NCBI GenBank assembly: GCA_019637095.1
Contig: JAHBWG010000082.1
Location: forward strand, 1-41,979
DNA from: Sandaracinaceae bacterium
Lineage (GTDB): Bacteria > Myxococcota_A > Polyangia > Polyangiales > Sandaracinaceae
DNA length: 41,979 bases
Reading direction: 5' to 3'
Shown one piece after another: positions 6,744 through 9,630 of the stretch. Position numbers and translations under genes: made by a program. The first letter of the stretch is position 1; every line of letters begins with the position of its first letter. The notes beneath the pieces are model-generated. The model was given only the letters and a program-made list of their open reading frames with translations. It had not been told where the DNA came from and ran no database searches.

Positions 6744-7403
6744 ATGACCCGCATCCACGCCGGCGCCACGCTCGATCGGCCCCCGGGGCCGAAGTACGCG
6801 GCCGCGCTGGACTTCGCGGAGCTCGCGCCTCCGTCTCCGTTCCCGACCGAGCGCACGCTGCGCCGCTGGCGCTCCGAGCTGCCCGAGGGCCTGACGCTGT
6901 CGTGGGTCGTCCCCGCCACGGCCGCGCGCTCGAGCCGCGGCCCCCTCCGCTTCGACGACGCGATGACGGACGCCTTCGCCCGCGCTCGCGAGGCCGCTCA
7001 GATCCTCGGCGCGCGCTTCGCGGTCCTCTCGACGGGGGCCGACGTGACGACGGGCCCGCGCGACCGCGCGCTGCTCACGGAGTGGGTCGCTCGCTGGGGC
7101 GCGGACGCGGGGCAGATCGTGTGGCAGCCGACGGGGCTGTGGGAGGCGGAGCGCGCCATCCCCTTCGCGGCCGAGCTCGGCGTGCTCTACGCGTTCGACC
7201 CGCTCGAGACGGACGCCGTGCCGGTGGGCGAGGTGGTCTACGCGCGGCTGCGCGCGATCGGGACCCGGACGCGCTTCGACGAGTCGCGGCTCGAGGAGGC
7301 GCTCGAGGCGATCGAAGAGACCGAGGCGGCCGACGCCTACGTCGCGATCGAGTCGGCGACCTCGTTCCGCGAGGCGAGCCGGCTCGCGCAGCTCGCGGGC
7401 TGA
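6744..7403 (+). CDS. DUF72 (YecE-like) family protein
   Basis: 219 residues. The central part (about 35-60, PSPFPTERTLRRWRSELPEG) and the late motif YARLRAIGTRTRFDESRLE resemble the DUF72/YecE TIM-barrel family. In that family a Tyr-x-Arg-hydrophobic segment lies on the last strands. The usual N-terminal Gly-Thr-Ser-Gly-Trp segment is missing and the protein is shorter than typical members (about 240-280), so it is a trimmed variant. The biochemical role of DUF72 is not established. It ends 4 nt before the NFACT gene, so the two are almost certainly co-transcribed. The ATG has no Shine-Dalgarno sequence. Confidence 0.65.
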   Translation: MTRIHAGATLDRPPGPKYAAALDFAELAPPSPFPTERTLRRWRSELPEGLTLSWVVPATAARSSRGPLRFDDAMTDAFARAREAAQILGARFAVLSTGADVTTGPRDRALLTEWVARWGADAGQIVWQPTGLWEAERAIPFAAELGVLYAFDPLETDAVPVGEVVYARLRAIGTRTRFDESRLEEALEAIEETEAADAYVAIESATSFREASRLAQLAG

Positions 7404-7407
7404 GCAG

Positions 7408-8778
7408 GTGAGCGCCGCGATCGAGGAGCTCTCGGGCGCGCGCCTGCAGCGCGTCGACGGGCCGCGCCCGCGGCTGTTCGTGTTGGGGCTGCACCGCCCG
7501 GGCGGCACGGGGTGGCTGCTGCTGTCCCTCACCGAGCCCGTCGCCTGGGGCTGGGTCGACGCGCGACCGCGGGGTGAGCCGGCGTCCTCGTTCGTGCGGC
7601 TGCTGCGCAAGCACCTCGAGAACGCGCGCGTGCTCGAGGTCGTCGCGCACGCCGCCGGCGGGACGATCGAGCTCGCGCGCGGCGAGTCGCGCGCGCGGCT
7701 CCACCTGCTGCGCACGCCGCCGAACCTCGTCCTCGAGCTCGACGGGGCGATCGCGCACGCGCTCGACCCCCACGCGCTGGCCGCGGCGGGGCTCGCTCGC
7801 GGCGCGCCCCTCCCGGCGCCGCCGCAGGGCGAGCCCGCCCTCGCGAGCGACCTCGCGGCCTTGACACGGGCGGGCCCCGCGATCCTCTCGGCGCGCACCG
7901 GCGCGGACGCCGAGGCGCGGCGCACCCCGCTGCTGAAGGCGGCGCGCCGTCAGGCCGCCCGGCTGAGGAAGCGCCTCGCCGCGATCGACGGCGACCTGGC
8001 GCGAGAGGCGGACGCGGCGCTCCTGCGCGATCGCGCGAGCCGGCTGCTCGCGCACCTCGCGCACGTGCCGCGCGGGGCGACCGAGGCGCTCGTCCCGGAC
8101 TGGAGCGGCGGCGGTCCGATCGCGATCCCGATCCGCGCCGGCCGCACGCCGCGCGAGGAGGCGGACGCGCTCTTCACGCGCGCGCGCAAGGTCGAGCGCG
8201 GTGGGCTCGTCGCGCGCGACCGCCGCGCGCTCACAGAGGGGGAGCTCGGGCGGCTCGACGCGCTCCTGGCGCGCCTCGAAGCGGCGGACGAGGACGCGCT
8301 CGACGCCCTCGAGGCCGAGGCGGCCGCGCTCGGGATCGCGACGCCGAGCGTCCCGGGGCGCGCGCGCGCGCCGAGCCCGCGCGCGCCGTACCGCGTGTTC
8401 GTCGGGACCGGCGGGCGGACGATCCTCGTCGGCCGTTCGGCGCGCGAGAACGACGCGCTCACCCTCGGGGCGCGGCCCTGGGACGAGTGGCTCCACGCGC
8501 GGGGCGTGCCCGGCTCGCACGTCGTCGTGCCGCTCGAGCGCGCCGAGGAGTGCCCCGATCCGCTGCGCCTCGACGCCGCGCACCTCGCGGCGCACTTCTC
8601 CGAGGCCCGCGGCGAGGCGCGGGTCGACATCACCTGCTGCGCCCGCCGTCACGTCCGCAAGCCCAAGGGGTCGCCCCCGGGCGCGGTGCGCGTCGAGCGG
8701 GAGCGCGTGGTCGTCCTCCGGCTCGAGCCCGAGCGCCTCGCCCGCCTGCTCGCGAGCGAGAAGCCCCCGCCGCGCTGA
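7408..8778 (+). CDS. NFACT-family protein (RqcH/Rqc2-like ribosome quality control factor)
   Basis: 456 residues. The N-terminal NFACT-N part is recognised by FVRLLRKHLENARVLEV (62-78), matching the MLLRKH segment of RqcH. A helical, Arg/Ala/Leu-rich middle (about 165-300) would form the coiled-coil arms. The C-terminal NFACT-R domain (about 333-385) carries GRSARENDALTL, W-x-H-x-R-x-V-P-G-S-H. Known RqcH binds stalled 50S subunits carrying peptidyl-tRNA and recruits tRNA-Ala to add alanine tails. Here the Asp-Arg pair needed for tRNA binding is replaced by Gly-Gly (84-85), and EIMGRHSN reads LLRTPPN. The protein is also about 100 residues shorter than the Bacillus one. Start GTG. Confidence 0.8.
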   Translation: MSAAIEELSGARLQRVDGPRPRLFVLGLHRPGGTGWLLLSLTEPVAWGWVDARPRGEPASSFVRLLRKHLENARVLEVVAHAAGGTIELARGESRARLHLLRTPPNLVLELDGAIAHALDPHALAAAGLARGAPLPAPPQGEPALASDLAALTRAGPAILSARTGADAEARRTPLLKAARRQAARLRKRLAAIDGDLAREADAALLRDRASRLLAHLAHVPRGATEALVPDWSGGGPIAIPIRAGRTPREEADALFTRARKVERGGLVARDRRALTEGELGRLDALLARLEAADEDALDALEAEAAALGIATPSVPGRARAPSPRAPYRVFVGTGGRTILVGRSARENDALTLGARPWDEWLHARGVPGSHVVVPLERAEECPDPLRLDAAHLAAHFSEARGEARVDITCCARRHVRKPKGSPPGAVRVERERVVVLRLEPERLARLLASEKPPPR

Positions 8779-9106: not shown

Positions 9107-9367
9107 TCAGCTCAGCAGGTTCTTGCTGCCCGGAGCGGGCGCCGCCTTGCTGGCCTTCTTCTTGGCGGCCTTCTTCTTGGCAGCCTTCTTCGCCGGGGCC
9201 TTCTTGGCAGCCTTCTTCTTGGCGGCCTTCTTCGCCGGGGCCTTCTTGGCGGCCTTCTTCGCCGGGGCCTTCTTGGCGGCCTTCTTCTTGGCGGCCTTCT
9301 TCGCCGGGGCCTTCTTCTTCGCCGCCTTCTTCGCGGGCGCCTTCTTCGTCGTCTTCTTCTTCGCCAT
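9107..9367 (-). CDS. Histone H1-like Lys/Ala/Pro repeat DNA-binding protein
   Basis: 86 residues, almost entirely Lys, Ala and Pro: a start MAKKKTTKKAPAKK, then repeats of KKAPAKKAA and KKKAA, ending SKAAPAPGSKNLLS. This is the composition of bacterial H1-like proteins and of the eukaryotic H1 tail, which bind and compact DNA through charge. The start is the ATG at 9367, with a good Shine-Dalgarno (GGGAGGAG) 7 nt upstream. The frame stays open further upstream, but the promoter falls there. The coding DNA is itself repetitive (9140-9360), so in-frame repeat gain or loss is expected. It is one of the few genes here with both a strong promoter and a strong ribosome site, suggesting high expression. 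Confidence 0.85.
   Translation of the reverse strand: MAKKKTTKKAPAKKAAKKKAPAKKAAKKKAAKKAPAKKAAKKAPAKKAAKKKAAKKAPAKKAAKKKAAKKKASKAAPAPGSKNLLS
9140..9360 (-). repeat. Degenerate tandem repeats coding for KKAPAKKAA units
   Basis: The sequence alternates GCCTTCTTGGC, GCCTTCTTCGCCGGGG and related units in 12-27 nt periods, all multiples of three. It is coding repeat DNA, not an array with unique spacers. Confidence 0.8.
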
Positions 9368-9402
9368 GTTGGACTCCTCCCGTGGGGTCTCAGGTCTGGC
9401 GT

Positions 9403-9432
9403 ACCGTATTGTCACGTCATGCAATGTGTCAA
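9403..9432 (-). promoter_or_regulatory. Strong promoter of the histone-like gene with AT-rich upstream element
   Basis: Minus strand: TTGACA (9427-9432), an 18-bp spacer, TACGGT (9403-9408). The 45 bp upstream (9435-9480) are unusually AT-rich, as in an UP element bound by the RNA polymerase alpha subunit. A partly symmetric sequence (TTGTCAC..GTGTCAA) spans the -35 and spacer and could be an operator. The predicted leader is about 30 nt and contains the Shine-Dalgarno. Confidence 0.7.
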
Positions 9433-9558
9433 GCAGCCAAAACACATAATTTATATCTAAGTTTCGCATCAAAGATCCTAAATTGACCCATCACGACACC
9501 TAAGAGCATGTGATCATTGATCAAAAACGTATGGCCACGTACCCCCTCGGAACCCTTG

Positions 9559-9600: not shown

Positions 9601-9630
9601 TTGACATGCCGGTCTCGGGCGGCCTACGGT
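9601..9630 (+). promoter_or_regulatory. Promoter of the OmpA-like gene; predicts a leaderless mRNA
   Basis: TTGACA (9601-9606), an 18-bp spacer, TACGGT (9625-9630). Both boxes and the spacing are identical to the histone-like promoter. Six nucleotides (GGCCCG) separate the -10 from the ATG at 9637, so +1 should be the A of the start codon. Confidence 0.7.

Follow-up and report, generated by a model that had tools for sequence, protein, structure and literature searches.

An RqcH-family protein without the tRNA-binding Asp-Arg pair: a probable tail-less, 50S-binding derivative in the order Polyangiales

In bacteria, peptides that are stuck on broken ribosomes receive alanine tails from the factor RqcH. 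Can such a factor keep a ribosomal role once the residues that select its tRNA have been lost? This question is raised by the gene at positions 7408–8778 of a contig from a Sandaracinaceae bacterium (order Polyangiales, phylum Myxococcota; assembly GCA_019637095.1, contig JAHBWG010000082.1), whose 41,979 nucleotides were analysed as a whole and are referred to as the window. The alignments and structural models presented here suggest that its product is probably a clade-specific RqcH derivative that binds obstructed 50S subunits but neither selects tRNA-Ala nor builds alanine tails. Binding without tailing is the best-supported reading because the tested tRNA-contact features are gone, while the M hairpin, the coiled coil and the NFACT-R domain are kept and strongly conserved. 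A literature search limited to open-access papers found no description of natural RqcH proteins lacking the Asp-Arg pair. The features of the locus are collected in Table 1.

The gene product belongs to the NFACT (Rqc2/NEMF/RqcH) superfamily. Its architecture consists of NFACT-N, a coiled coil with M hairpin, and NFACT-R, in the same order as in RqcH (YloA) of Bacillus subtilis, a member of the Rqc2/NEMF family. The Pfam profiles NFACT_N (E 4e-20) and NFACT-R_1 (E 8e-7) both matched above their cut-offs, and a phmmer search of the PDB retrieved B. subtilis RqcH (7aqc, E 4e-28), with a strong match over residues 212–443 and a weak one over the N-terminal stretch. An AlphaFold2 model (mean predicted local distance difference test score, pLDDT, 94.8; predicted template modelling score, pTM, 0.68) matched RqcH chains over their whole length (8s1u_H, Z 20.8, 360 residues aligned; 7aqc_R, Z 16.6), with a large overall root-mean-square deviation (rmsd) because the domains are hinged and have moved. 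Taken singly, NFACT-N resembles that of FBPS (5h3x, Z 17.5, rmsd 2.7, 153 residues aligned, including a bit of the start of the coiled coil) and NFACT-R resembles CCDC25 (7eoe, Z 19.3, rmsd 1.8). The M hairpin is kept in the model as strands 226–229 and 238–241.

Several features by which RqcH contacts tRNA are missing. First, an hhalign comparison of 42 proteins from the order with 36 from other parts of the phylum (probability 100, 453 columns) paired Ala82-Ala83 of the window protein, which G84-G85-T86 follow, with the Asp-Arg of the latter set, whose Arg is invariant and whose Asp is almost so. According to DSSP analysis of the model, residues 82–83 form a tight hairpin turn between strands 74–81 and 84–91. 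Elsewhere in the N-domain, an acidic residue and an Arg come close together nearby only at R15-V-D17 and D51-A-R53, which lie on different segments of the fold. Together with the phylum-wide count given below, these results bear out a first-pass annotation of this DNA, made from sequence alone, which had described an RqcH-like protein without the tRNA-binding pair and had proposed a structural check of the site. Its conclusion on the pair holds, while its register (residues 83–86) was off by about one residue. It had also seen that LLRTPPN takes the place of EIMGRHSN and that NFACT-R and the central helices are retained; LLRTPPN does stand in for the GRHxN segment, which is largely lost in the order, and the C-terminal parts are present in the model, with NFACT-R the most conserved.

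Second, the window protein begins past the first N-terminal helix of canonical RqcH, so that a conserved acidic residue, which we take from its position to be the equivalent of Asp9 of yeast Rqc2, is gone. This residue is Glu or Asp in 50 of 53 proteins from outside the order, and is represented by scattered letters inside it. In 17 of 23 resolved loci of the order, the GTG or ATG start codon overlaps the stop codon of an upstream DUF72 gene by 4 nt, which supports the truncated start; in the window itself, the DUF72 stop at 7403 and the NFACT start at 7408 are separated by 4 nt. Third, the helix-hairpin-helix (HhH) domain is absent from the model, in which strand 114–118 and helix 121–126 are followed by about 22 residues and then by the coiled coil at residue 149. 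Loss of HhH was rejected as a hallmark of the order, since the domain is missing throughout the phylum in this sample, even where Asp-Arg is kept: Pfam matches jump phylum-wide from about profile position 170 to about 280, skipping the HhH region. The linker between NFACT-N and the coiled coil has a median length of 16 residues within the order, against 26 in the other members of the phylum.

The effect of removing the pair is known from engineered proteins. B. subtilis RqcH carrying D97A/R98A no longer selects tRNA-Ala or functions in ribosome-associated quality control (RQC), yet the variant is still isolated on 50S-peptidyl-tRNA complexes, with NFACT-N and HhH swung off the anticodon; a similar yeast variant keeps binding and loses tailing, and recruitment of RqcH requires uL11, through the M domain (PMC8373112). 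A D98A variant is deficient in the addition of carboxy-terminal alanine and threonine (CAT) tails (PMC5562442). The window protein carries Ala-Ala at the very site changed in the B. subtilis variant (PDB 7ope). Whereas the latter was engineered at two residues, here the surrounding loop, the first helix and HhH are missing as well, and the state has become fixed across the order. The proteins of the order resemble a mutant of this kind that arose in nature and was reduced further. Experiments in yeast and Bacillus separated the two activities of Rqc2/RqcH, binding of the split large subunit and synthesis of tails, through mutations in the Asp-Arg pair; the same separation appears to have arisen naturally and to have been retained across an order that includes culturable Sorangium, Polyangium, Minicystis and Sandaracinus.

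In the proposed mechanism, a 50S subunit with a stuck peptidyl-tRNA would be recognised through the M hairpin (at the uL11 stalk base), the coiled coil and NFACT-R. Selection of tRNA-Ala would no longer take place, alanine tails would not be built, and the remodelled NFACT-N would meet either the peptidyl-tRNA, without anticodon specificity, or a partner, for which the DUF72 protein would be the leading candidate. It is unlikely, but conceivable, that C-terminal tails are still made, with the tRNA chosen by other NFACT-N residues or nonspecifically, so that the tails would contain amino acids other than alanine, or a mixture. Such a role would fit the retention of NFACT-N, its good fold in the model and the purifying selection acting on it, as well as a basic RPRG motif (residues 53–56) conserved in the consensus of many order members, but all tested tRNA-contact features have been lost together, and the B. 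subtilis variant described above argues against it. The first-pass annotation had offered both 50S binding without tailing and use of another tRNA; the models and comparisons favour the former, and the latter still stands as an alternative.

How far does the loss extend? A search of 235 genomes of the phylum with PF05833 and of 144 genomes of the order with the window protein, supplemented with fetched loci, yielded 105 near-full-length proteins. Asp-Arg or Glu-Arg occupies the pair columns in 51/53 proteins from outside the order, whereas Asp-Arg is found in 1/52 inside it, so the loss is not a matter of chance; the alignment of the divergent N-domain within the order is uncertain in detail, which makes per-letter counts noisy but not the absence of a shared Asp-Arg. 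Members without the pair include three strains of Sorangium cellulosum, Polyangium fumosum, Minicystis rosea, Polyangium sp. 6x1 (G310) and Sandaracinus sp. NAT131 (G217). In a tree built on the C-terminal two thirds of the proteins, from which the columns bearing the pair were left out, all 52 order members fall on one side of a single branch (support of 99 in the Shimodaira-Hasegawa-like approximate likelihood ratio test, SH-aLRT). The order thus forms one clade, for which a single loss is enough, and the loss of Asp-Arg, first helix and GRHxN is most parsimoniously placed as one ancestral step on its stem. The survey of Myxococcota suggested in the first-pass annotation locates the loss across the whole order and finds the pair kept by nearly all sampled proteins from outside it.

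The nearest relatives outside this clade, exemplified by the Asp-Arg-bearing Myxococcota proteins L016, L018 and L036, have the same domain order and likewise no HhH, but retain Asp/Glu-Arg and the helix-1 acidic residue, and for the most part GRHxN; no upstream DUF72 gene was detected for them. As these proteins lack HhH, and as five of their genomes show no clear stand-alone RqcP, alanine tailing may differ throughout the phylum. In another lineage of Myxococcota, the RqcH-like frames of family f17 (L081, L082, L088–L091, L093, L094; 337–409 aa) match the profile only from the coiled coil onwards; NFACT-N seems to be wholly lost in what appears to be an independent and more extreme event.

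The altered proteins are maintained by selection. NFACT-R residues G342, N348, H363, G369, H371, S398, K418 and G425 are identical in 52/52 order members. The ratio of nonsynonymous to synonymous substitution rates (dN/dS), taken from close pairs with unsaturated dS (about 0.24–0.35 for the N-domain), is 0.02–0.09 for NFACT-R, 0.19–0.23 for the coiled coil and 0.14–0.35 for NFACT-N in the order, compared with 0.15–0.19 for NFACT-N in Asp-Arg relatives. The altered NFACT-N is thus under purifying selection, perhaps somewhat less constrained than in those relatives. Another explanation would be that the protein is a decaying remnant in which NFACT-R function alone is left; the N-domain is indeed more divergent than the rest, and the f17 frames seem to do without it. 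However, dN/dS stays under 1 in all domains, NFACT-N among them, long intact frames occur in dozens of genomes and the model is well folded, which makes decay very improbable. Just as improbable is a role away from the ribosome, for instance in binding or modifying RNA, given that the best-kept parts are those with which RqcH faces the ribosome (M hairpin, coiled coil and NFACT-R).

The upstream gene offers a possible partner. Its product was assigned to DUF72 from Pfam PF01904 and from its modelled triosephosphate isomerase (TIM)-barrel fold. The profile matched with E 8e-5, 2 bits under the curated cut-off, and a homologue (L057) scores above the cut-off. A sequence search against the PDB gave no real match, and only the fold search succeeded: the model (pLDDT 96.3) is closest to the DUF72 structures 1vpy (Z 20.0, rmsd 2.8, 211 residues aligned) and 1vpq (Tm1631, Z 18.7), followed by MbnB, UVDE, xylose-isomerase-like and endonuclease IV barrels (Z 14–15). 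It shares the fold of the DUF72 family but is shorter and divergent, with conserved motifs of its own (VWxPxGLWE and FDPL). Several of the DUF72 partners (L007, L050, L185, L204, L207) carry long Asp/Glu-rich C-terminal tails.

A related DUF72 gene lies directly upstream in 24/26 loci of families f1, f3, f54, f55 and f56, and further upstream in some f5 loci; none was detected next to the gene in 53 relatives from elsewhere in the phylum. Weaker DUF72 relatives are located elsewhere in f2 and f5 genomes. In genomes G242, G252 and G282 a DUF72 gene (L252, L253, L254) occurs without the NFACT gene. An obligate pairing was rejected on these grounds, and because no adjacent DUF72 gene was seen in f2 and f6; the pair is a conserved but non-obligate operon, because adjacency in 24/26 loci coexists with DUF72 alone in three genomes. 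The link to DUF72 noted in the first-pass annotation is real and stronger than claimed, although DUF72 can persist alone. At L253, DUF72 is followed by a gene similar to the window gene at 9601, as though the NFACT gene had dropped from the locus.

This coupling could mean that NFACT-N has become a docking surface for DUF72 in a two-part factor at the obstructed 50S, with the endonuclease-IV-like barrel acting on tRNA or rRNA. The adjacency and start/stop overlap, the likeness to MbnB, UVDE and endonuclease IV barrels and the predicted nucleic-acid binding of Tm1631 (PMC3828134) all point this way. Nevertheless, the idea is doubtful: the Asp-Arg pair is gone in f2 (Sorangium, Polyangium) and f6 too, where no adjacent DUF72 was detected, DUF72 persists where there is no NFACT gene, and nuclease activity is speculation. 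A form of RQC without tails, which would have taken the place of alanine tailing in the order and in which the RqcH derivative would mark the obstructed 50S and the translationally coupled barrel would process the tRNA or the nascent chain, is rather improbable as well.

Are tails made by other means in the same genome? The search for a second NFACT gene proposed in the first-pass annotation had a mixed outcome. A second relative is present and is of NFACT-R type (L015, contig C146 of the window genome, 3273–4169, minus strand), whereas no second canonical RqcH was found in this draft genome, which is 96.4% complete; a third PF05833 match, on contig C9, was rejected as RqcH and reads as a cytochrome P450-like frame. 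Like the window genome, many others of the order carry a second relative of about 130 aa that is essentially NFACT-R alone (L011–L014). A search for a stand-alone S4 protein of RqcP type covered six genomes. The six S4-domain matches of the window genome read as RpsD, RluB-type, TyrRS, RluD, TlyA and RluA-type proteins, with no stand-alone RqcP seen among them. No clear RqcP was found in five Asp-Arg-bearing Myxococcota genomes either, so its absence does not bear on the loss of the pair and was rejected as a sign of lost tailing. According to a published survey (PMC11633108), 61/72 Myxococcota genomes contain rqcH, and nearly all have trans-translation and ArfB.

Set against B. subtilis RqcH, the window protein thus lacks Asp97-Arg98, GRHxN, HhH and the first N-terminal helix, and no stand-alone S4 protein of RqcP type was found in its genome. 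Several observations nevertheless weigh against a 50S-binding derivative that makes no tails. The genome is a draft, and the loss of HhH and lack of RqcP, being shared with relatives that keep Asp-Arg, give by themselves no argument for lost tailing. One subclade (14 rows, comprising f5 and some f2 proteins, including Polyangium and Sorangium) mostly has Asp-Gly at the site, and one of its members, L106, shows Asp-Arg. The latter was rejected as a retained pair, as it is nested among Asp-Gly proteins and would be at most a reacquisition, secondary or fortuitous. Finally, purifying selection on NFACT-N indicates some retained job, perhaps the binding of tRNA in a different way. If the protein does work on ribosomes, RqcH has a selected role that needs no tailing, and DUF72, a widespread family of unknown function, gains a testable context. 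Counts of rqcH by profile alone may overstate the spread of alanine tailing.

Table 1. Positions in the window of the NFACT gene, its domains and altered sites, and the upstream partner gene.
Feature	Position	Strand	Description	Evidence
NFACT/RqcH-family gene	7408–8778	+	GTG start, 456 aa; no Asp-Arg pair, no HhH domain	
NFACT-N domain	7408–7785	+	residues 1–126; beta fold retained, canonical RqcH first helix absent	model and structural match
Ala82-Ala83 codons	7651–7656	+	hairpin turn at the site of RqcH Asp97-Arg98	hhalign, DSSP of model, sequence
LLRTPPN	7705–7725	+	residues 100–106, in place of the conserved GRHxN segment	
Coiled coil with M hairpin	7849–8382	+	residues 148–325 (M hairpin about 216–247)	model; middle part of Pfam NFACT_N
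NFACT-R domain	8383–8775	+	residues 326–456, best-conserved part	Pfam; structural match to CCDC25 7eoe; conservation
DUF72 gene	6744–7403	+	divergent short protein, 219 aa, conserved upstream partner	Pfam, model, conserved adjacency

Shortly downstream of the NFACT gene, positions 9107–9472 on the minus strand encode a lysine/alanine-rich repeat protein (KKAAKKAPAKK...) that resembles the histone-H1-like proteins of bacteria.
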